From: Rhodococcus tukisamuensis NBRC 100609
GTDB lineage: Bacteria; Actinomycetota; Actinomycetes; Mycobacteriales; Mycobacteriaceae
Assembly (NCBI RefSeq): GCF_001894985.1
Contig: NZ_BCXG01000003.1
Coordinates: 186,001-250,000 of the forward strand
Direction: 5' to 3'
Length of the DNA stretch: 64,000 bases
The position numbers and the translations under genes are program-made. How positions within the stretch are numbered: position 1 is the first letter of the stretch; every line of letters starts with the position of its first letter. Positions 4,915-51,673 of this stretch are shown piece after piece. The notes under the pieces are model-generated. The model was given only the letters and a program-made list of their open reading frames with translations, searched no databases and was not told the origin of the DNA.

Positions 4915-5580
4915 TCAGGCGCCGGCCGGGTGCGGAGAGTCGTCTGCCGACGGTGCCCCGACCACGGGCAGTGACGGCAGGCGGGTCGCCTGGGCGCGGA
5001 ACCGGCGACGCAGCCACCAGCTGGCGGCGACCACGGCCGCGACCGCCAGCAGCACGGTGGCACCGCCGCCGAGCGCGTGTTCGACCCTCTCGTACGAGTT
5101 CCCCGCGAAGTAGCCGAGGAGCACGTTCCCGGTGCCGAACACCACGGCCGCGACCGAGTTGAAGGCCAGGAAGCGCCGGTACGTCATCTCGCTGAGCCCG
5201 GCGAGCGGGGGCATCACCGTCCGCACGTACGCCACGAAGCGACCCAGGAACACCGCCGGGCCGCCGTGCCGCGTGAGCAACGCCTGCGCACCGTCGAGCC
5301 GGGCGCCGAGGAACGGGACCCGCAACACCCGCGGACCCAGCCGCCGGCCGAGTCCGAATCCGACGGTGTCGCCGAGGATCGCGGCGACGATCACCAGTGC
5401 GATCATCAGCCACAGGTTCGCGTCGGTCTGGCTGGCGATCACGCCGCCCATGATCGCGGCGGTCTCGCCGGGGACGAGGAACCCCAACAGCAGCGCATCC
5501 TCGGTGAAGACGAATGCGGCTACGACGGCATACCCGACGATCACGTCGAGGGTCTGTAGTCGCTCCAGCAGTTCGCCCAT
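4915..5580 (-). CDS. DedA family (SNARE-associated) membrane protein
   Basis: A 221-residue polytopic membrane protein of the DedA/VTT family, implicated in membrane lipid scrambling (undecaprenyl phosphate or phosphatidylethanolamine recycling) and proton-motive-force-linked envelope maintenance. Family motifs visible are the acidic re-entrant segment FVFTEDALLLGFLVPGET near residue 24, the glycine-rich GDTVGFGLGRRLG near residue 82, FLGRFVAYVRTVMPPLAG near residue 112, with its conserved arginines, and FNSVAAVVFGTGNVLLGYFAGNS near residue 140. The C-terminal tail is basic and cytosolic. The ATG at 5580 lies 13 nt from the stop of the TetR gene upstream, so both are likely on one transcript. 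Confidence 0.9.
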   Translation of the reverse strand: MGELLERLQTLDVIVGYAVVAAFVFTEDALLLGFLVPGETAAIMGGVIASQTDANLWLMIALVIVAAILGDTVGFGLGRRLGPRVLRVPFLGARLDGAQALLTRHGGPAVFLGRFVAYVRTVMPPLAGLSEMTYRRFLAFNSVAAVVFGTGNVLLGYFAGNSYERVEHALGGGATVLLAVAAVVAASWWLRRRFRAQATRLPSLPVVGAPSADDSPHPAGA

Positions 5581-6208: not shown

Positions 6209-6222
6209 GATTCCAGCGTAGG

Positions 6223-6249
6223 CCCAATGTTGTACTCGGTACAAGTTTG
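6223..6249. promoter_or_regulatory. Palindromic TetR operator in divergent promoter
   Basis: The core TTGTACTCGGTACAA (6230-6244) has perfect 6-bp arms around a 3-nt spacer. The symmetry extends outwards to CCAA/TTGG at the edges, giving 10 of 12 paired positions per arm. It sits between the divergent TetR gene (start 6208) and the NADP-dependent oxidoreductase (start 6308). Its size and position are typical of TetR operators; binding by the adjacent TetR is inferred. Confidence 0.7.
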
Positions 6250-6307
6250 GGCCGGGTTCAGTCAGCGTCTGTGGAATAGATCACCCTCGCCAGACCGTTC
6301 CCGGGTC

Positions 6308-7234
6308 ATGACCCATACCGTCGTTGCCCCCGAGTTCGGAGGACCTGAGGTCCTCACCGTGATCGACGAGCAGGTACCGCCGCCCGGCCCCGGCCGGGTC
6401 CAGGTCGAGGTGCGCGCGGCGGGCGTCAACCCCGCCGACTACAAGATGTACAACGGTGCCTTCGGCACCGATCCCCGCAGCCTGCCGGTGCGTCCGGGCA
6501 TCGAGGTGTCCGGCGTGGTGGTCGCGGTCGGCGACGACGGCCCGTTTCGTGTCGGCGACGAGGTGATTGCCTACACCGGCACCGGCGGCTACACCGAGCG
6601 GCTGAATGTCGCCGCCACGGACGTCCTCGCCAAACCCGCCGCGCTGCCCTGGGAGCAGGCCGCCGGCCTGCTGACCACCGGCGGCACCGCCGTCGACGCG
6701 TTGACCACCACCGCCGTGACAGCCGGTGACACCGTCCTGATCCACGGCGCGTCCGGCGGCGTGGGATCGCTGGCGGTGCAACTCGCCGTCGCGCGGGGTG
6801 CCACCGTGATCGGGACCGCCCGGGCGTCGAACCACTCCTACCTGCGCGAGCTCGGCGCCGTCCCGGTCGAGTACGGCGACGGCCTGGCGGACCGGCTGCG
6901 CGCGGCCGCACCGGACGGATTCGACGCGGCCGTCGACACCGTCGGCACCGACGAGGCCGTCGACGCCTCATTGGAACTGGTCGCGGACCGTGGCCGGATC
7001 GTCACCATCGCCGCGTTCGGCCGGGCGGAGCAGGACGGGTTCCCCGCGATCGGCGGCGGCACCCCGGAGAGCGCCCGGATCCGGCGGGAGGCACGCGCGG
7101 GCCTGGTGGATCTGGCCGGGCAGGGGAAGCTCGTAGTCCAGGTCGCGAAGACTTTCCCGCTCGCCGACGCCGCGCGGGCGCACACCGAGCTGGCGGCGCC
7201 GCACCCCCGCGGGAAGTTCGTCCTGCTGCCCTGA
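6308..7234 (+). CDS. NADP-dependent quinone oxidoreductase (zeta-crystallin type)
   Basis: A 308-residue medium-chain dehydrogenase/reductase of the zinc-free quinone reductase class. The N-terminal GroES-like half includes VRAAGVNPADYK (residues 36-46) and the block PGIEVSGVVVAVG (63-75). The nucleotide-binding motif GASGGVGSLAVQLA at 147-160 is that of NADPH-dependent members. There are no structural-zinc cysteines. The C-terminal block HPRGKFVLLP is diagnostic. Such enzymes make one-electron or two-electron reductions of quinones or reactive enones, often under TetR sensors of electrophiles. The ATG at 6308 lies 58 nt downstream of a strong TetR palindrome, suggesting direct repression by the divergent TetR. 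Confidence 0.9.
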   Translation: MTHTVVAPEFGGPEVLTVIDEQVPPPGPGRVQVEVRAAGVNPADYKMYNGAFGTDPRSLPVRPGIEVSGVVVAVGDDGPFRVGDEVIAYTGTGGYTERLNVAATDVLAKPAALPWEQAAGLLTTGGTAVDALTTTAVTAGDTVLIHGASGGVGSLAVQLAVARGATVIGTARASNHSYLRELGAVPVEYGDGLADRLRAAAPDGFDAAVDTVGTDEAVDASLELVADRGRIVTIAAFGRAEQDGFPAIGGGTPESARIRREARAGLVDLAGQGKLVVQVAKTFPLADAARAHTELAAPHPRGKFVLLP

Positions 7235-7326
7235 CCCCTGCCCCTACCCGCCGTCGACGAATCCGCCACCCACTGTTCACCGTCACGTTGTCGACCGGAC
7301 GTCCGGCCCTGCCAACCTCGTAGACA

Positions 7327-42976: not shown

Positions 42977-43876
42977 ATGACCACACTCATCAGCGCACAG
43001 GGCGGCGTCCGGCGCCGCCTGACTGCGATCGGCGGCGCTGTCGCGGCCTTGTTCCTGGCGGCGTTTGCTGCATTGATGATGCCGGCGGCGGCACACGCGG
43101 ATCCCAACGTGATCTCGTACTCGAACGACAGCGGCGCGACCTGGGGCGGGATGGACAAGATCCCCGCCCTCGAGGGCGAACTGATCCCCGGGGGCGAGGC
43201 CGTCAGCACCTTCTGGGCCAAGAACACCACCGCCCAGGGCGGCACCCTGCAGGTATATCTCGGCAACTGGACGATGAACGCCCCGGAGGTCCAGGCCTAC
43301 GTGCGGGCTGAGATCAACGACATCTCCGGCACTGTCGTCGACCTCGTCAACGACGTGGCCGAGCCGGGCACCGAGCTCGAGTCCATCCACCTGTCCCCGG
43401 GCCAGAGCGCCAAGGTGATGCTGGTGGTCGGCATGCCCGAGAGCGCCGGCAACGAGTCCCAGGATGCCTCGATCGACCCGGACTTCGCCCTCGACTTCGA
43501 GGTCGACGCCGCGCCGGCGGTCACCACCACCACGGTGACCGGCCCGGCCACCGCCAACACCAGCGCGGGCATAGAGTTGACCGCGACCGTCGCCCCGGCC
43601 GACGCCACCGGCACCGTCCAGTTCAAGGACGGCACGACCAACCTCGGCACCCCGGTCACGCTCGTCAACGGCGTCGCGAAGGTCACCCAGATCTTCGAAA
43701 CCGCGGGTGCGCACAGCATCACCGCCGTCTACTCGGGTGATGCCACCAACGCGACGTCCACCTCCGCGGCGCACGTCGTCACCGTGACCGTCACCGGCGG
43801 CGGCAACGGCTCGTCGGGCTCGCTGGACCTGGGTTCACTGGATTCCGGTTCGCTGAGCAACCTCTTCGGTTCGTAA
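42977..43876 (+). CDS. Secreted surface protein with Ig-like domain
   Basis: A 299-residue secreted protein. Its long signal peptide (RRR, then IGGAVAALFLAAFAALMMPAAAHA) should be cut near residue 41. The next part, about residues 42-175, has GGEAVSTFWAKNTTAQGGTLQVYLGNW and LSPGQSAKVMLVVGMP, reminiscent of the beta-sandwich of TasA/camelysin-type proteins. A bacterial Ig-like repeat (Big_5 type; TGTVQFKDGTTNLGTPVTL...GAHSITAVYSGDAT) covers about 180-275. The tail is Gly/Ser/Leu-rich without a sortase motif. It flanks the SipW-type locus, and I infer it works with those proteins. A strong hairpin follows the stop. Confidence 0.8.
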   Translation: MTTLISAQGGVRRRLTAIGGAVAALFLAAFAALMMPAAAHADPNVISYSNDSGATWGGMDKIPALEGELIPGGEAVSTFWAKNTTAQGGTLQVYLGNWTMNAPEVQAYVRAEINDISGTVVDLVNDVAEPGTELESIHLSPGQSAKVMLVVGMPESAGNESQDASIDPDFALDFEVDAAPAVTTTTVTGPATANTSAGIELTATVAPADATGTVQFKDGTTNLGTPVTLVNGVAKVTQIFETAGAHSITAVYSGDATNATSTSAAHVVTVTVTGGGNGSSGSLDLGSLDSGSLSNLFGS

Positions 43877-44144: not shown

Positions 44145-44984
44145 TCAGGGCGCTCGATGGTGCCCGTCGATCCGGGGAATCACCACGGTGTCCGCCTCGA
44201 CGAAGCCTCGCCGACCGGCCGGTGGGATCGCAGTGGGCACCGGCGGCCGGTGAGCGCCGTGCCCACCGCCGATGCGCGGCATGACGATCGTGTCCGCCTC
44301 GGTCACCGGAGCGCCGTGACGGACGGGTGCGGGGCGACCGAGCGGTGCCTGCGGGTACGGCGGAGTCGGTTGCACGGGCCCCGCGGCGGCCTCGGGGGTC
44401 GCGTCGGCGGGGTCGTCCTCGCCCTCGTCCTTGCCCTTGCGGGAGCGGTCCCGGAACCCGCTGACAAACATCCAGCCGGCGTAGGCGAGCAGGCCGCCGA
44501 CCACGACGACGATCATGATCGACCGCTGCTGGCCGGTGACAACGCTGTTGACGTACCCCATGAACGGGACGCTGTACCAGAGCTTTCCGCGAATCTGTTC
44601 CGGCACGACGGGGTTCATGTCGCGGGACGGGTTGGCGTCGCCCTGGGTGACGAAGGACTTCTCGCCGCGGGCGTTCTCGCGGACCTCGATGATCCGGTGG
44701 GTGACGACATCCAGCTTCCCGGATTCCTTCTGGAAGGTGATGACGTCCCCGGCCTGCAGCGCCGCCGGGTCCTCCGGCTTGACGACGATGAGGGTGCCGG
44801 GCGGGTAGTTGGGCTCCATCGAGCCGGTGAGCACGGTGTACGGCGTCGCCCCGGTCAGCCGCGGTATGACGATGGTGAGGGCGAGGATCGCGAGCACGGC
44901 GAGGAGGACGAGCCAGGAGACGATGCTCTTGACCCACCCCCACACGCCGAGATCCTGACCCTCGCCCGACACCGTGTCACTCAT
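44145..44984 (-). CDS. SipW-like signal peptidase I with repeated C-terminal tail
   Basis: A 279-residue ER/SipW-type signal peptidase. Helix one spans about residues 18-41. Catalytic Ser55 is in TGSMEPNYPPG. His96 (VTHRIIEV) replaces the Lys of standard LepB-type peptidases, and Asp116 lies in TQGDANPSRD. Helix two is about 155-176. The cytosolic tail (about 180-279) is Pro/Arg-rich and holds two copies of a motif, EADTIVMPRI and EADTVVIPRI. It is the last gene of the six-gene operon, nine bases after the preceding stop, and should remove the SipW-type signals of the neighbouring proteins. Confidence 0.9.
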   Translation of the reverse strand: MSDTVSGEGQDLGVWGWVKSIVSWLVLLAVLAILALTIVIPRLTGATPYTVLTGSMEPNYPPGTLIVVKPEDPAALQAGDVITFQKESGKLDVVTHRIIEVRENARGEKSFVTQGDANPSRDMNPVVPEQIRGKLWYSVPFMGYVNSVVTGQQRSIMIVVVVGGLLAYAGWMFVSGFRDRSRKGKDEGEDDPADATPEAAAGPVQPTPPYPQAPLGRPAPVRHGAPVTEADTIVMPRIGGGHGAHRPPVPTAIPPAGRRGFVEADTVVIPRIDGHHRAP

Positions 44985-44993
44985 GGTCGAAAA

Positions 44994-45533
44994 CTACCGG
45001 GACTGCGCCGAGAACGTGAACGTCGCGGTGGTGCTCTGCCCGGAACCAGCAGCAGCGCCGACCGTACCGCGCAGGCACAGCACCTCGGTGGCGCCGGGCT
45101 GCACCTCGCGTTGGGCGAAGCTGGCGCCGATCAGCGCGCCGGTGTAGAGCCCGGTGGCGCCGGTCGGGTTGCCGGTGGCCGGGCAGGATGCCTCGTCGGG
45201 GACGATGGAGGCGACCAGGTCCAGCGGCAGCGCCGGATTCGACTGCGATCCGTTGAGCAGCTGGTACTTCATCAGCACGTTGCCGGAGTTGTACACCTTC
45301 ACCGGTGCCTGCGCGTAGCCGCCCGGCATCAAGTTCGCGCCGGCAAGCGCGGTGAACGGGTACGAGCTGAGCCCGGCGCCGCCGACGCCCAGGTCGAGGA
45401 TGCCGGACTGGATCGAGCCGGCGTCGAAGGTCTCGGTCTGGGTCCACAGCGCACCGGTCTGCTGCGCGGACAGCAACGCCACACCGACCACGGCGGCGCC
45501 GCCGATCGCCAACCAGCGGGTCTTGTTCGACAT
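44994..45533 (-). CDS. SipW-dependent-type small surface protein
   Basis: A 179-residue exported protein with a SipW-cognate type N-terminus: MSNKTRWLAIGGAAVVGVAL, then AQQTGALWTQTETFDAGSIQSG, where the A/W-T pattern after the core and the GxIxSGxLDL start of the mature domain are the family pattern. The mature part is a TasA/camelysin-like beta-sandwich (NSGNVLMKYQLLNG, VQPGATEVLCLRGTVG), with two Cys that could bridge. It is like the protein at 47941 in layout. It is nine bases upstream of the SipW-like peptidase gene. Confidence 0.8.
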   Translation of the reverse strand: MSNKTRWLAIGGAAVVGVALLSAQQTGALWTQTETFDAGSIQSGILDLGVGGAGLSSYPFTALAGANLMPGGYAQAPVKVYNSGNVLMKYQLLNGSQSNPALPLDLVASIVPDEASCPATGNPTGATGLYTGALIGASFAQREVQPGATEVLCLRGTVGAAAGSGQSTTATFTFSAQSR

Positions 45534-45538
45534 GTCGA

Positions 45539-46177
45539 CTACACCTGCTTCAGGGTGACGTTGAAGTTGGACAGGTTGATGGACTGCTGCTGTGCGGCGG
45601 GGTCGGTGCTGGACTTCGGGAAGGTGAACTTCACCGACACGGTGACGGACTTCCCGTCCAGCGCCGGGGTGACCAGGGCACCGTTGCCGTTGGCCGGCAG
45701 CGGGTTTCCATCGTGGACATAGGTGACGACCGGGGTCATCGCGTTCTTGAGCTCTGCGCCGCCGCTGATGTTGATGCCCTCGGCGGCCAGCGTCGCCTTG
45801 AGGCCGGTGCCGCGAGCGGTGATCGTGAAATCGGACGAGTAGGTGAGCACGTCACCGGGGATGGCGCTGAAGGTGGCGATGTCGATCGGACCGTTCTGGT
45901 CCGTCCACCGGGACGCGCCCTGCTGGGTGAGCTTGAGGCCGCCCGAGTTGGCGCCGCCGCCGATACCACCGCCCACGCCACCGCCGGTGCCGGTGTCGAT
46001 GCCACCGCCGGTGCCTCCACCGGTTCCCGTTCCTCCACCGTTCCCGGTGCCGCCGCTGTTGCTCGACCCCGAACTGGACCCGAAGTCGGGTTGGCAGGCG
46101 GTCAGTAGGCCGGTGCCGCCGGCGAGCAGGACTATCGCGGCACCGGTGGTGAACACGCGCTTGACCTTCGAGTTCAT
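45539..46177 (-). CDS. Lipoprotein paralogue of the alternate-signal surface protein
   Basis: A 212-residue protein. MNSKVKRVFTTGAAIVLLAG then TGLLTACQ gives a lipobox Cys31, followed by a Gly/Ser/Thr-rich spacer (about residues 35-80) with GGGTGTGGGTGG runs. The mature domain ends INLSNFNVTLKQV, which matches the end of the 48736-49263 protein (VNLNNFNVTLTQN), and the GDVLTYSSDFTITARGTGLKATLAAE block also has a counterpart there. So it is a lipid-anchored version of the same subunit fold. ATG 46177 has a GAAGG site; ATG 46228 would add a 17-residue leader. I infer a membrane anchor for a fibre or coat. Confidence 0.78.
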   Translation of the reverse strand: MNSKVKRVFTTGAAIVLLAGGTGLLTACQPDFGSSSGSSNSGGTGNGGGTGTGGGTGGGIDTGTGGGVGGGIGGGANSGGLKLTQQGASRWTDQNGPIDIATFSAIPGDVLTYSSDFTITARGTGLKATLAAEGINISGGAELKNAMTPVVTYVHDGNPLPANGNGALVTPALDGKSVTVSVKFTFPKSSTDPAAQQQSINLSNFNVTLKQV

Positions 46178-46238: not shown

Positions 46239-47933
46239 CTACTTCGCAACCAGTGCGGCCACCTCGGCCGGCACCGTGTCGGAGGTCGGGTCGACGATCT
46301 TCTGCTTGCCTGTGGTGGCGTCGACGACGGAGACCTTGTCGCCGTCGACGATCCACAGCTCGTCGGATCCCTTCGCCCACTGGGTCTTCGTACCCTTGCC
46401 GACGGTGCCGGTGAACACCTCAGTGCCCGAGGAGTCGGTGATGGTAGCGGTGGTTCCGTCCACGGCCGCCGCGTAGGTGCCGGACGGTGACGCCTCGCCC
46501 ACGGGGACGACAGCCGGAGCCTCAGTCTTCTCTTCCGTGGTCGTGACCGGCGGGACCGTGGTGGTTGTCGGCGGGACCCTGGTGGCGGACGGTGCAGTCG
46601 ACGACGACGGCGCAGTCGTGGTGGCGGTCGGTGCGACGCTGGACGTGGTGGTCGGTAGCGTGCTTGAAGTCGCCGATCCGGGAGTCGACGAGGTCGCAAC
46701 CACACTGGACGTCGGAATCGTCCCCTCGCCGGCTTCGGGTGCGGGAAGGGACCGCATGCGCGCGGTATCGGTACCGCCGGTGCCAGAGTTGCCCGATTCG
46801 GCCATCAGTCCATTGATTCCACTGCTGCAGTTGAGATCCCAGGTGACTGGCTGATAGACCTCGTGCCCCTGCCACCCCGTCGACTCCTGCCCGGAGGCCG
46901 GGTTGACTGTGTACACGCGGGCATAGTAGGTCCAGGCGGTGTGCCCACCGGTATCTCCGGTGGTCAGCTGTGGGAAGTACAACCAGCTTCCCACGGCTTC
47001 CGTACCCGAGACCTTGATCACGTCCTTGACGACGACCTGATCGCCCCGCTTGACCACGAGGCGATAGTTGAACCCGTATCCGAGGTGCTTGACTCGCGTC
47101 TGCACCGAGTTTCCGTTGTTGTCGCAGATGACCTCGACGGGTCGGGGCAGCAGATCCGCCGCAGCTGCAAAGGTCCCCGAATTGGCAGTGGCGCTGTCGG
47201 AGAACGCAGCGCTCGTTCCGGTCACGCCGGCGCCGAGCACCGTCAGGCCGACCGCACCGAGTGCAATCGCGGTGCGCGGTGACAGCAGCCGCCGGAGCTG
47301 GAAGTTCGGGGCGCGGAACTGCTGCGTCGGAGCGTCGTCAATGGCTGCCGCGACCGGCTGCTCGGTACGCTCGTGCGTGCCGGGCCCACCGCCGGTTCCC
47401 GAATCGTCGGAGTCGTTGTCGTCCTTACGCTTCGAGACCGGACCGAAGGCGAGCACCATGACGCTGCCGACGAGGGCGCCGCCGAGGAAGATCGCCATGG
47501 GCGAGGACAACCACGACACCGCGTAGCCGAGGCCGGGGACGCTGAAGAACACCCGGTCCACCTCGGTGACGGTGTACGGGGAGATGTCCGCGTCCTTGTT
47601 GGCGTCGCCCTTGAGGATCAGCACCGAGTTGATGCCGTCGGCGGAGACGATCTCGTGGATGCGGTGGGTGATGCGGGTGCCCTGCTGATCGAGCACGCTC
47701 ACCACGTCGCCGACGGCGAGATCGCCTGCGGCGGTGGCCTTCGACAGGGCGAGGGCGCCGGTCGGGATCTCCGGGGACATGGAGCCGGAGCGGAAGACCA
47801 GCGGCTTGATGCCGAACAGGAACGAGGCGGCGGCCGCCAGCACGCAGATCAGGCCGGCGATCGCACCAACGTTCAGCGCGATCTCACGGCCCCTGGAGCG
47901 AGACGAGTCGGGTGAGCTCTGGTGTGTCGTCAT
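46239..47933 (-). CDS. SipW-like signal peptidase fused to SipW-type signal and secreted domain
   Basis: A 564-residue chimera. Residues 1-170 form a complete SipW-like peptidase: helix one about 19-41, Ser51 (SGSMSP), His90 (ITHRIHEI), Asp110 (KGDANKD), helix two about 143-165. After an acidic cytosolic linker (170-215) comes a second export-signal-like segment, SPRTAIALGAVGLTVLGAGV then TGTSAAFSDSATANSGTFAAA (about 218-258), matching the SipW-cognate signal of the adjacent protein at 47941. A secreted domain (about 260-390), a long Ser/Thr/Pro stalk (about 400-480) and a C-terminal beta-domain (about 485-564) follow. Seven bases separate it from the preceding gene. A fusion of peptidase with its substrate class is unusual. 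Confidence 0.85.
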   Translation of the reverse strand: MTTHQSSPDSSRSRGREIALNVGAIAGLICVLAAAASFLFGIKPLVFRSGSMSPEIPTGALALSKATAAGDLAVGDVVSVLDQQGTRITHRIHEIVSADGINSVLILKGDANKDADISPYTVTEVDRVFFSVPGLGYAVSWLSSPMAIFLGGALVGSVMVLAFGPVSKRKDDNDSDDSGTGGGPGTHERTEQPVAAAIDDAPTQQFRAPNFQLRRLLSPRTAIALGAVGLTVLGAGVTGTSAAFSDSATANSGTFAAAADLLPRPVEVICDNNGNSVQTRVKHLGYGFNYRLVVKRGDQVVVKDVIKVSGTEAVGSWLYFPQLTTGDTGGHTAWTYYARVYTVNPASGQESTGWQGHEVYQPVTWDLNCSSGINGLMAESGNSGTGGTDTARMRSLPAPEAGEGTIPTSSVVATSSTPGSATSSTLPTTTSSVAPTATTTAPSSSTAPSATRVPPTTTTVPPVTTTEEKTEAPAVVPVGEASPSGTYAAAVDGTTATITDSSGTEVFTGTVGKGTKTQWAKGSDELWIVDGDKVSVVDATTGKQKIVDPTSDTVPAEVAALVAK

Positions 47934-47940
47934 GGCGGGC

Positions 47941-48552
47941 TCAGGCCGTCGTCGCGTTGAAGTTGAAGGAGGTGCTTACCGTCTTGTTCTGCTCAGATGT
48001 CAGCACCGACGGATCGAGCGTCACCTGGAAGCAGAGAGTCTCGCTGGCGCCATTGTTGAGCGCACGACCGGTCGGGATGACATTGGTCGAACCGCCGGAC
48101 GTGAGTGCGAGGTTGTTCGCGATGACGGTGCCGCCGCTGCACGCGGTGCCATTCGAGGTGCCGGTGGAGACGAGCACCTTGAGGTACGGGGCGAGCGTCG
48201 AGGAGGTGGAGTTCGCGACCATCGTGTAGCTGAACGGGACCGTGCCCTTGTTCTGCACCGGCAGGGTCGCAGCCACCGAGTTGCCCGGCATCATGTTCGT
48301 CTTGGTCAACGATGCGAACGCGTAGGCCGTGGGGTTGCCCGGATCGTTGTTGAGCTGCAGGTCCACCGATCCGGTGGAGAAGACACCCGAGGTGGCGGTC
48401 GCCGAGTCACTCCACGCGGCGAGGGTGCCGATGGCGCCGAGGCCGAGGACGATGCCGAGGGAGGCGATGGCGCGAGGCTTGCCGCCGGACAGCAGGATTC
48501 GTGCTCGGGCACCGAACCCTGACGACGTGGTGGGAACCTCGTGACGCGACAT
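47941..48552 (-). CDS. SipW-dependent-type small surface protein
   Basis: A 203-residue exported protein with a SipW-cognate signal: a polar leader, KPRAIASLGIVLGLGAIGTL, then AAWSDSATATSGVFSTGSVDLQLN, which is the textbook pattern of that signal class (hydrophobic core, A-W/F-S-D, then the T-x-G start of the mature chain). The mature part is a beta-sandwich of TasA/camelysin type (MMPGNSVAATLPVQNKGTVPFSYTMVAN). Two Cys (TACSGG, ETLCFQV) may bridge. It starts at ATG 48552 with an AAAGG site, downstream of a strong hairpin that separates it from the first gene of the operon. Confidence 0.85.
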   Translation of the reverse strand: MSRHEVPTTSSGFGARARILLSGGKPRAIASLGIVLGLGAIGTLAAWSDSATATSGVFSTGSVDLQLNNDPGNPTAYAFASLTKTNMMPGNSVAATLPVQNKGTVPFSYTMVANSTSSTLAPYLKVLVSTGTSNGTACSGGTVIANNLALTSGGSTNVIPTGRALNNGASETLCFQVTLDPSVLTSEQNKTVSTSFNFNATTA

Positions 48553-48735: not shown

Positions 48736-49263
48736 CTAGTTCTGCGTCAGGGTGACGTTGAAGTTGTTCAGGTTGACGGTGCCGTCCTGGGCGGTGGTGC
48801 CGGTGACGGAGGTCGGCAGCTCGAAGAGGACCTTCACGTTGAGGTCCTGGCCGTTGTTCGCCTCGGTGATGGTGCCGACGGCGCCGCCGTTGAAGGTCGT
48901 CGTAACGGTCTTGGTCAGCGCGGCGTCGAGGCCGTTGGTGCCGGTGATGCTGGCGGCATCGGCGACAAGGGTTGCGGCGAGGTTGGTGCCCTGGGCCCCG
49001 ACCTTGACGACCGCGTCGTAGGCGACCTTGTCGCCGGGGACGATCTTGTCGGTGGACGGGTTGTAGGCCTGGCCGTCCTTCGAGCCGCCGACCCACTTGA
49101 AGCCGGTGCTGCCCGAGACGGTGGTCAGGGTCAACTTACCGGAGTTGACGGCGCCGCCGCTGACGGTGGTGGAGGCGTTCCACGCCGCCATGGTGCCCGC
49201 GCCACCGGCGAGGAGGAGCGCGGCCGCGCCGGCGGCGATGGCACCCTTGGTCTGCTTGTTCAT
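48736..49263 (-). CDS. Alternate-type signal peptide surface protein (probable major subunit)
   Basis: A 175-residue exported protein. Its N-terminus MNKQTKGAIAAGAAALLLAG, then GAGTMAAWNASTTVSGGAVNSG, is the alternate-signal class recognised by SipW-type peptidases in actinobacteria (family knowledge). The mature chain is small, beta-rich and without cysteine (KIVPGDKVAYDAVVKVGAQGTNLAATLVAD, VNLNNFNVTLTQN), suiting a polymerising subunit like TasA. It is the first gene of the operon, with its own promoter region and a terminator-like hairpin after it, hinting at higher expression. Major-subunit status is inferred. Confidence 0.82.
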   Translation of the reverse strand: MNKQTKGAIAAGAAALLLAGGAGTMAAWNASTTVSGGAVNSGKLTLTTVSGSTGFKWVGGSKDGQAYNPSTDKIVPGDKVAYDAVVKVGAQGTNLAATLVADAASITGTNGLDAALTKTVTTTFNGGAVGTITEANNGQDLNVKVLFELPTSVTGTTAQDGTVNLNNFNVTLTQN

Positions 49264-49766
49264 GTAGTGCTCAGCTCTCGTCGGACCCCACCGGTCGGAT
49301 GGGGTCGTGGAATCGGTCTGCGGATCTGGTTACGTGCGCCCAGTTCGGGTGGGCCGGCTTTCGGTCGTCCGTGTTCGTCAGGGGGTCGCGACATCGGGCC
49401 TGGGTAGCCGACCAGTAGATGAGCAACCGGATGGCTATCGGTTCGCGATGCGACGTGTCTAGCACAGACCACAACGAGATTGGTGCTGTTTTGGTCAAAC
49501 GTCCAGATCTGCTGTGGCATGGTTCGCCGAGCTAACAGAACCCATCGTCTACCAGCGCCGATGCGTTACAGGTAGCTTTCCCTGGTGGGGCCGCATCCGC
49601 AGCCGGCACCGGTCTGCCGCCGCCATCCGGTGGCCCGGTCGAATTACCGGAACCGACCTCGCTCGGAGGTCAGGGACGGCTGCTAGCGTCATCCCGCAAC
49701 GACACAGCCCGCAACACCGCAGCCCAAGAAGCACAGATGCAGACCCCGAGAAGTACGAGGCACACC
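49264..49766. other. 503-nt divergent promoter region, SipW operon to response regulator
   Basis: No convincing ORF. It must carry the operon promoter (leftward) and the response-regulator promoter (rightward). A stem GACCCC (49284-49289)/GGGGTC (49301-49306) lies in the 5' leader of the operon, about 20-45 nt before its start. The stretch around 49450-49520 is A+T-richer and is the likeliest site of the leftward promoter. I could not place -35/-10 boxes with confidence. An ATG at 49737 in the regulator frame is an alternative start. Confidence 0.55.
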
Positions 49767-50450
49767 GTGAGCGATAGCGAGTCCGTCCCACCGGAGTCCC
49801 CTCCCCGCCGCATCGGAATCGTCGAGGATCACGAATCCGTGGTGATCGGTCTCGAGACGATGCTCGCCGACCAGCCCGACCTCGCGATCGCCGCCTCCGC
49901 CGCGACCGTGCCGGAACTGCTGGCGCAGGGCACAGCGCTCGACCTGGTCATCTTGGACCTACGACTCTCGGACGGGTCCTCACCCCAGTCCAACGTCGAG
50001 CAGCTGCGGTCTGCGGGCCTCGAGACGCTCGTCTTCACCGGCGCGGAAAACCCCTATCTGGTGCGACTGGCCGCGAAGGCCGGTGTGCTCGGGGTGGTCC
50101 GCAAGTCCGAGCCCACCGCCACCGTCGTCGCCGCGATCACCGCGGCGGCCAACGGCGAGCAGGTGGTGACCACCGAGTGGGCGGCCGCCATCGACGGCGA
50201 CCCCGGCCTGCTCGACGTCGGACTCAGTCCCCGGCAGCGAGATGTGCTGGCACACTATGCCTCCGGCGAGAAGGCCGCCCGCGTCGCCAGCCTCACCGGA
50301 CTGGCCGAACACACGGTCAACGACTACCTCGCGCGGATCCGGGCCAAGTATGCCGAGGCCGGCCGACCGGCCCGGACCAAGACCGACCTATACAAGCGGG
50401 CCGTCGAGGACGGCTGGCTACCCATGCCCCGCCACCCCGACCAACCGTGA
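49767..50450 (+). CDS. NarL/FixJ-type response regulator
   Basis: A 227-residue response regulator. The receiver domain (about residues 14-130) has the acidic pair Glu20-Asp21, phospho-acceptor Asp64 in LVILDLRLSDGSS, Thr91 and Lys113, so it should be phosphorylated. The LuxR-type HTH is at about 160-215 (LSPRQRDVLAHYASGEKAARVASLTGLAEHTVNDYLARIRAKY), followed by a short basic tail. GTG 49767 has a GAGG site; ATG 49737 would add ten residues. Its stop overlaps the kinase start (GTGA), so phosphotransfer from that kinase is expected. It faces the SipW operon and probably regulates it (inference). Confidence 0.88.
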   Translation: MSDSESVPPESPPRRIGIVEDHESVVIGLETMLADQPDLAIAASAATVPELLAQGTALDLVILDLRLSDGSSPQSNVEQLRSAGLETLVFTGAENPYLVRLAAKAGVLGVVRKSEPTATVVAAITAAANGEQVVTTEWAAAIDGDPGLLDVGLSPRQRDVLAHYASGEKAARVASLTGLAEHTVNDYLARIRAKYAEAGRPARTKTDLYKRAVEDGWLPMPRHPDQP

Positions 50451-51673
50451 CCCCGCTCATCCGCGAACCTGTGACCTCCACCGCCCCACCAACCGGCGCC
50501 AGGCACGAGGCTGCCGACCGCATCCTGCGACTGTTCACACGCTTCACCGGCGGCGGCTACCTCGTCTACCTGGTCCTGCTACTACCGGCAATCGTCTCGC
50601 AGGCTCACCTGATGGACCGCTGGTGGACCCCGACTGCCGCGGTCGCGGTGTTCGGGTCGGGCCTGGCGCTCGTGGCCGCGTCCTTCCTCCCCGACACCAG
50701 GATCCTGCGGGCGGCAGGCGGGACCGCTGCCCTGGTTTATCTTCTGGCACTTGCCGCGTGGCCCCTCGCTTGGAACGGCCTGTCCCCGGCAGACGGCGCC
50801 GGAATCTGGCTGTCGACGTTCCCCGGCCTCGCCAGCCTCGCCGCCCTCGCGGCCTGGCGGCCTGCCTACGCGTTCGCGCATGTCGTGATCGCCTGCACCG
50901 GAGTCCATCTCGTCAACAGTGCGGCCCGATCCGGGCACATTACCATTCTGCTGATCCCGGACATCGCCTTCACTGTCATGTTCTGCACGTTGTTCGTCGG
51001 TGCCGCGGCGATGGCCCTCCGCACCGGCCGGGTGCTCGACGCCACCACCGACGCCACCCACGCCGCCGCTGCGGCCGCCGCCGCCCAACACGCCCGGACG
51101 GTCGAGCGCGAACGGTTCGACGCGCTGATCCACGACGGGGTGATGTCGACCCTGCTCTCCGCGTCCAGGCAGGGCGCAACGCCGAGCATCGCACGGCAGT
51201 CCGCCGCTACGATGCGCCAACTCGACGCCCTCCGCTCCGGCCCCGGACCGCACGAACGCTTCGACGAGGCGGAGGTGCTCTCGCACCTGCGCACCGCCGC
51301 GACGGAGGTGGACGAGGACGCCACCCTGCAGATGCTTCGACACCCCGAGTCGGCCGCCCTGTCCATGCCCGCAGACGCCGTCCGTGCGATGGGCGCGGCG
51401 CTGGCGGAGGCACTACGCAACAGCATCGCGCACGCGGGGCCGGACGCACACCGAGCCGTCGTCGTCACAATCGCACCGGACCGCGTCGGCATCCGCATCG
51501 CCGACAACGGAATCGGCTTCGACCCCGATTCGATTCCTGCACACCGCCTCGGCCTCGCCGTCAGCATTCGAGCCCGGATGGGGCAGGTTCCCGGCGGCTC
51601 GGCACTCATCGACTCCCGGCCTGCCGACGGCACCCGAATCCACCTGACCTGGCGTGCATCATGCCGGACATGA
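50447..51673 (+). CDS. Membrane histidine kinase (DesK/NarX-like)
   Basis: A 408-residue sensor kinase. About five to six membrane helices fill residues 35-195. The phospho-acceptor His229 is in RFDALIHDGVMSTLL, a short HisKA_3-like dimer helix. The HATPase part has the N-box EALRNSIAHAG (Asn325) and IADNGIGFDPDSIP (Asp353). The helical linker carries an Ala-rich run (THAAAAAAAAQHA). There is no periplasmic sensor domain, so it likely senses through the membrane. It overlaps both neighbours by GTGA and ATGA. A paralogue lies at 53216. Confidence 0.85.
   Translation: MTPLIREPVTSTAPPTGARHEAADRILRLFTRFTGGGYLVYLVLLLPAIVSQAHLMDRWWTPTAAVAVFGSGLALVAASFLPDTRILRAAGGTAALVYLLALAAWPLAWNGLSPADGAGIWLSTFPGLASLAALAAWRPAYAFAHVVIACTGVHLVNSAARSGHITILLIPDIAFTVMFCTLFVGAAAMALRTGRVLDATTDATHAAAAAAAAQHARTVERERFDALIHDGVMSTLLSASRQGATPSIARQSAATMRQLDALRSGPGPHERFDEAEVLSHLRTAATEVDEDATLQMLRHPESAALSMPADAVRAMGAALAEALRNSIAHAGPDAHRAVVVTIAPDRVGIRIADNGIGFDPDSIPAHRLGLAVSIRARMGQVPGGSALIDSRPADGTRIHLTWRASCRT

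Follow-up and report, generated by a model that had tools for sequence, protein, structure and literature searches.

A second SipW-type signal peptidase in Rhodococcus encoded in one frame with a protein bearing its own class of predicted cleavage site

Why should a signal peptidase share one chain with a protein that carries a cleavage site of the enzyme's own class? This question is raised by a single gene in a stretch of 64,000 nucleotides from Rhodococcus tukisamuensis NBRC 100609 (hereafter the window; all positions count from its first letter), where the minus-strand frame at 46239..47933 encodes, in 564 amino acids, an S26 signal peptidase, an internal SipW-type signal, an FN3-like domain, a stalk and a C-terminal domain. 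In Bacillus, SipW cuts TasA and TapA, and TasA subunits link by insertion of the N-terminal strand of one subunit into the next (PMC9674648, PMC10151520). The mature N-terminus of TapA, AFHDI, is nearly the AFNDI of TasA; its Ig fold is already complete and it supplies the first strand (PMC9674648, PMC10151520), and its gene is tied to sipW by a stop/start overlap (PMC10151520). In the abstracts and passages of open-access papers that were searched, no account was found of a signal peptidase linked covalently to a protein with a cleavage site of the enzyme's own class; the parts and the type of system are known, and their arrangement appears undescribed. A first reading made from the letters alone (the sequence-only reading) had taken the chain for a signal peptidase joined to a substrate of its own class, which, if the enzyme cut in cis or trans, would release a surface protein of roughly 320 residues. 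We now regard a more specific reading as an even prospect: the gene would encode a SipW–TapA-like polyprotein that is cut at TSA|AF to give a membrane peptidase and a filament initiator.

The frame opens with ATG at 47933 and runs down to 46239, stop included, through 564 codons and no internal stop. The fusion was found as a single open frame in 6/6 genus genomes searched, the window's included (the other five at 49–62% identity), and in all 13 fused proteins from 12 genomes that were compared. It is carried by Rhodococcus sp. RD6.2, R. triatomae, R. oryzae, R. spelaei, R. maanshanensis and R. xishaensis, and in R. marinonascens it is present as far as the contig extends. The linker between the two halves (residues 165–219, 47277..47441, minus strand, mostly low confidence in the AF2 model and probably cytosolic) keeps a coding pattern, with a GC3 of 0.79 against a GC2 of 0.57 (667 codons, 13 genes). 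The earlier claim that both halves lie on one chain is thus borne out, and the arrangement looks as if it has been kept by selection. Within the window gene, no in-frame ATG, GTG or TTG occurs between residues 166 and 231, so that the ectodomain would be made only as part of the whole chain; a shorter second product from an internal translation start is ruled out for this gene. Such codons are present within the linker or third transmembrane segment (TM3) of the seven other fused genes compared, in which a shorter product may therefore arise.

The first half of the chain is a membrane-bound S26 peptidase by sequence and by model. An Arg-rich N-terminus precedes TM1 (residues 17–42, 47808..47885; helix 14–40 in the AF2 model, and conserved in the 13-row alignment), which is followed by the catalytic domain (residues 43–141, 47511..47807; delimited by profile match, Foldseek and alignment) and TM2 (residues 142–164, 47442..47510; model helix 145–163), all on the minus strand. 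The SipW-type family profile TIGR02228 matched the protein with 50.4 bits (E 2e-13) in the window search and 53.1 bits in the genome search, on either side of its curated cut-off of 51.85, and it matched 13/13 fused proteins at E<=0.01. The Bacillus SipW equivalog NF046067 gave 55.5 bits, below its curated 190, and the protein falls outside that narrower family. The fused proteins show the features of endoplasmic reticulum (ER)-type S26 enzymes, namely a catalytic Ser in S-x-M, His in place of Lys and a conserved acid. Ser51 in SGSM (codon 47781-47783), His90 in THRI (47664-47666), Asp110 in KGDAN (47604-47606) and Asp116 (47586-47588), all on the minus strand, are invariant in 13/13. The sequence-only reading had named Ser51, His90 and Asp110 as the triad and had held that a triad not conserved in homologues would refute its proposal; the three residues are there and are kept throughout, but the assignment of the acid has to be revised. 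Aligned through the operon's canonical SipW to human SEC11A/C, the catalytic acid is most likely Asp116 (GD+6) rather than Asp110; its SEC11 counterpart in this alignment is Asp122, which we take to be the catalytic acid there.

Conservation is concentrated in this half: invariant columns among the 13 fused proteins number 39/99 in the catalytic domain, 1/55 in the linker and 0/20 in the hydrophobic core of TM3 (the rows L057, L059 and L067 begin at positions that differ from the likely starts by one to three residues). A Foldseek search with the predicted model gave SEC11C and SEC11A as top matches (E 8e-4, prob 1.00, TMt 0.55–0.60), and a profile of the fused protein (6 rows) gave zero matches in the PDB at E<=1. 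SEC11A and SEC11C of the eukaryotic signal peptidase complex would be the closest solved folds of the catalytic domain, although they are subunits of a multi-protein complex and carry no fused substrate. Two matches to the fused protein were found in the window's genome, and a tree of 38 peptidase domains separated canonical SipW from a second class with support of 100/100. The peptidase half is a second, lineage-specific SipW-type enzyme beside the canonical one, and it is predicted to cleave signal peptides.

The second element of the question is the site itself. TM3 (residues 220–242, 47208..47276, minus strand) has the form of a SipW-type signal, in that a hydrophobic core is followed by T-x-A-A-aromatic as in TasA, and it ends in T240-S-A242. 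Across residues 220–262, T240, A242 and A243 are the sole invariant columns out of 43 in the 13 fused proteins, and the position after A243 is Phe, Trp or Tyr in 12/13 and Leu in the other. Bacillus TasA is cleaved by SipW at TWA-AFND (PMC10269814); with this site as reference, T240, A242 and A243 map to P3, P1 and P1′ and the aromatic residue to P2′, which places the predicted cut at A242|A243. The family profile TIGR04088 gave 17.2 bits against a curated cut-off of 19 and matched 1/13 fused proteins at E<=0.01, and hence we claim no formal membership of the SipW-signal family. The S-A-A-F-S-D-S pattern of the export signal that the sequence-only reading had recognized inside the chain is present at residues 241–247, and nothing but the expected processing site is invariant in the region.

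Taken together, these features suggest how the protein might work. Two neighbouring operon genes, one for a second SipW-type peptidase and the other for one of the operon's own exported proteins, would have been fused. The chain would cross the membrane three times, with TM1, the catalytic domain outside, TM2, the linker in the cytosol, TM3 and the ectodomain outside. The end of TM3 (T-x-A|A-F) would be cut by the chain's own catalytic domain, by the operon's canonical SipW or by both, leaving a two-helix peptidase in the membrane and freeing a protein of 322 residues (243–564) that starts AFSDSATANSG, close to the size of roughly 320 first estimated. The freed protein would act as TapA does in Bacillus subtilis, in that its N-terminal strand would mimic that of the TasA-like subunit from the neighbouring gene and begin subunit assembly, while its complete FN3-like domain would stay at the starting end of the filament. 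One chain would in this way deliver cutter and initiator in equal numbers and at a single place in the membrane, and filament initiation and signal-peptide removal would be tied together in one molecule. More tentatively, and rather doubtfully at present, the peptidase may be self-releasing, cutting its own TM3 in cis and freeing the initiator where and when each molecule matures; one filament would then be seeded per peptidase, with filament number set by peptidase synthesis. For structural studies of bacterial signal peptidases of the ER type, the chain would also offer an enzyme with its substrate built in.

Is the ectodomain really of the TapA kind? In the model it begins with a low-confidence stretch (AF-x-D in the window) and continues into a complete Ig-like sandwich. 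The predicted mature N-terminus, AFSDSATANSGTF... (residues 243–262, 47148..47207), is donor-strand-like; it is followed by the FN3/Ig-like beta sandwich (residues 263–376, 46806..47147), the Ser/Thr/Pro stalk (residues 377–479, 46497..46805, low confidence in the AF2 model) and a C-terminal beta domain of about two propeller-like blades (residues 480–564, 46242..46496), all on the minus strand. Directly upstream, at 47941..48552 (minus strand), lies an M73/camelysin–TasA-like exported protein with the SipW-type signal TLAAW, in which the A-A-W-S-D-S noted earlier is indeed seen. PF12389 gave this protein 21.6 bits against a cut-off of 22.5 and matched 13/27 relatives at E<=0.01, and a TasA-like fold was found for its predicted model; the gene probably encodes a TasA-like filament subunit, which is predicted to form filaments. 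In 12 pairs, the first 13 predicted mature residues of the ectodomain share a mean of 6.1 identities with those of the M73 protein, where shuffling gives 2.85 (sd 1.26), compared with 3.0 for the class III SipW substrate (n=6; shuffled 2.6) and 2.0 for the other SipW-signal protein (n=7; shuffled 1.7). These figures cover 12 of 13 fused proteins (11 genomes), the remaining one being without an extracted M73 sequence, and use predicted cut positions; one class III sequence is that of the TIGR04089 gene downstream, and among the seven other SipW-signal sequences one is plainly not a signal site. The likeness to the M73 protein is equally strong between and within genomes, and it may therefore also be inherited.

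The best surviving alternative, which we consider unlikely, is that what is released is a surface protein, such as an adhesin, with no role in filament initiation, and that the SipW operon merely provides shared export. An exposed adhesin would be consistent with the FN3-like domain, the stalk rich in Thr and the rapid divergence of the ectodomain, whose mean modal fraction among the 13 fused proteins is 0.45 where that of the catalytic domain is 0.81. However, its mature N-terminus is like that of the M73 subunit and unlike those of the other two SipW substrates compared, and the M73 gene stands immediately before the peptidase gene in the fused loci and in 7/8 split loci; for L048, the eighth, the contig begins at that point. 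The claim of a surface protein fused to a peptidase stands, with the amendment that it is not just any surface protein but one like a TapA-type initiator in an apparent TasA-type operon. TapA itself was absent among the best 50 rows of either fold search with the fusion model, which is evidence neither for nor against the likeness. As a separate observation, an open reading frame just downstream of the canonical SipW of another genome (L013 in G001) consists of the C-terminal two-blade domain alone, with 49% identity.

Relatives in which the two halves are separate bear on what the link is for. Across 14 genomes of the sister genus, the fusion occurs in six (G024, G026, G027, G028, G029, G033) and the halves lie as adjacent genes in six (G014, G021, G025, G029, G030, G032), with both states together in G029; the halves are apart in G022, frameshifted G023 was left unjudged, and G031 gave no match at E<=1e-8. 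In a family sample of 16 genomes from 16 genera, the fusion was found in one, the window's own, adjacent separate genes in three (G014, G017, G018) and a second-class peptidase whose partner is absent from the stretch read in three (G008, G010, G015); nine had zero match. With adjacent halves in 6/14 sister-genus genomes and in representatives of two further genera, the gene is better understood as a fused operon pair than as an isolated oddity. In 8/8 split pairs the second gene lies in another frame than the first, with a 4-nt overlap in four, an 8-nt overlap in two, a 10-nt gap in one and an ambiguous start in one, as judged from the likeliest starts; such pairs could fuse through one small insertion or deletion.

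In the peptidase tree, the split lineages were the first to branch among the partnered enzymes, with moderate support; the tree program flagged long branches where the canonical outgroup joins the other sequences, and hence the root order is not firm. The tree includes L020, which is outside the 13-row alignment (its contig ends after the signal), and covers neither the frameshifted genome (L025/L062/L071, outside the alignment as well) nor L032, L037 (a missed marker), L038, L039 and the named canonical loci L026–L031. The fused label needs four changes on it, two of them forced by well-supported branches, so that several fusions, or fusions and losses, are likely. Two longer fusions with 768- and 773-aa frames (L067 in G024 and L068 in G029) have a 22-codon linker and, by eye, two FN3-like repeats; their peptidases form a long separate branch, and their architecture may be a separate fusion event.

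This pattern gives some room to the next alternative, also improbable and slightly less favoured, that the fusion merely couples expression: the canonical SipW would cut, the halves would act exactly like the separate proteins of split relatives, and being linked would serve no function. Fused and split states interleave with at least four changes, the split pairs overlap or nearly touch, and a canonical SipW is encoded in the same operon, all of which would agree with it. Against this, the fused peptidase retains a complete active site in 13/13 proteins, and the second architecture of L067 and L068 indicates that fusions may have arisen more than once. Because the halves also exist as separate proteins, the link must be dispensable in principle; with both forms occurring naturally in close relatives, its value can be tested directly. 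Two further observations concern the wider distribution. In a class-wide TIGR02228 search (40 genomes), the 14 loci read (L074–L087) of 29 outside the window's genome (L074–L102), a small sample, held no chain of peptidase, SipW-type signal and ectodomain, and several hits with long frames lay outside these 29 loci; in one of the 14 (L082, G062), a SipW-type signal peptidase runs into a C-terminal domain that is EAL-like by eye, in one 481-aa frame. At L024 (G022, Prescottella defluvii Ca11; 5001-5558, 6216-7241), the second-class peptidase is encoded on the other strand from the remaining operon genes, and the M73 gene is followed directly by that of the ectodomain.

Quite unlikely, in our judgement, is that TM3 stays uncut and the FN3-like ectodomain serves as an arm of the peptidase for capturing substrates or filament subunits at the membrane, much as the peptidase-like SipA aids the assembly of streptococcal pili. 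A protease site is expected to need residues such as T-x-A-A, whereas a membrane anchor is not, and it is this motif that is invariant in the signal region. Furthermore, the signal is internal in the fused proteins but near the N-terminus in the split relatives, where T-x-A-[AS] closes it in 8/8 separate partners (an aromatic residue follows in 5/8); the neighbouring M73-type proteins have T-x-A-[AS]-W in 27/27. Lastly, a sequencing frameshift or missed stop joining two genes, which the sequence-only reading had put forward as its own refutation, has a negligible probability, for although the halves are separate in some relatives and one public genome (L025/G023) is itself frameshifted at the locus, the same single frame in 13 proteins from 12 independent genomes and the coding GC3 bias of the linker rule it out.

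The preferred reading, a polyprotein of peptidase and filament initiator, can be set beside known systems. As in SipW of the Bacillus tapA-sipW-tasA operon, the peptidase half is of the Ser/His/Asp S26 type with two transmembrane helices, and TasA-like substrates carry T-x-A|A-aromatic sites (PMC10269814, PMC9674648); unlike SipW, the chain runs on through a third helix to a substrate-like ectodomain, and alongside it there is a second SipW, which is unfused. Bacillus SipW is reportedly bifunctional, with a regulatory role included (PMC13082335). With TapA as it appears in published descriptions, the ectodomain shares a SipW-type site, an AF-x-D mature N-terminus resembling that of the filament subunit and an Ig-like sandwich, and in split relatives a stop/start overlap ties the partner gene to the peptidase gene as in tapA/sipW. 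It differs from TapA in that its sandwich is FN3-like by model and not V-set, in its additional stalk and C-terminal domain, and in being made together with the peptidase. SipA of Streptococcus pyogenes, a signal-peptidase-like pilus assembly protein, is likewise an S26-fold protein in a surface-fibre cluster and is the nearest functional parallel found for an S26 protein serving fibre assembly; however, it is without catalytic residues, serves sortase-built pili, and its abstract mentions no fused substrate (PMC4049620). The Clostridium perfringens operon encodes SipW, filament-forming BsaA, further exported proteins and a two-component system, and in this it resembles the present locus, although the genes listed for it are separate (PMC7395162).

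The locus looks like a TasA-type filament operon, and the fused gene suggests that Rhodococcus-type actinobacteria have filaments of the TasA/TapA kind. The remaining genes of the presumed operon all lie on the minus strand. The first (48736..49263) encodes a TIGR04089 class III SipW-exported protein (149 bits, cut-off 60). After the fusion come a TIGR04089-domain protein with a lipobox (LLTAC, read by eye) in place of the SipW signal (45539..46177), a SipW-signal exported protein with TGALWTQ (44994..45533; TIGR04088 17.7 bits, under the cut-off) and the canonical unfused SipW-type signal peptidase of 279 aa (44145..44984; TIGR02228 106.5 bits). By eye, the TIGR04089-domain protein has the lipobox in the window and eight relatives, gene order differing in some of the eight, and the protein after the fusion has a SipW-type signal in five (compared loci L016, L018, L019, L021, L022; L024, L047, L056, L058, L059, L061, L064, L069); this switch may distinguish a membrane-anchored from a released filament subunit. 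The tail of the canonical SipW (44145-44400, minus strand) contains the motifs EADTIVMPRI and EADTVVIPRI, and the linker of the fused protein contains DAPTQQF, with T203 and F206 invariant in 6/6 genus members. Both peptidases thus have acidic-x-x-Thr-x-x-hydrophobic motifs in segments that are probably cytosolic; the motifs are reminiscent of Ser/Thr-kinase or FHA-type sites. Window positions 49737-51673 (plus strand), which begin just upstream of the operon and diverge from it, encode, by eye, a response regulator and a histidine kinase. Convergent to the operon end is a gene at 42977-43876 (plus strand), whose product combines a signal-like N-terminus with a Big_3_5 Ig-like domain (60.4 bits).
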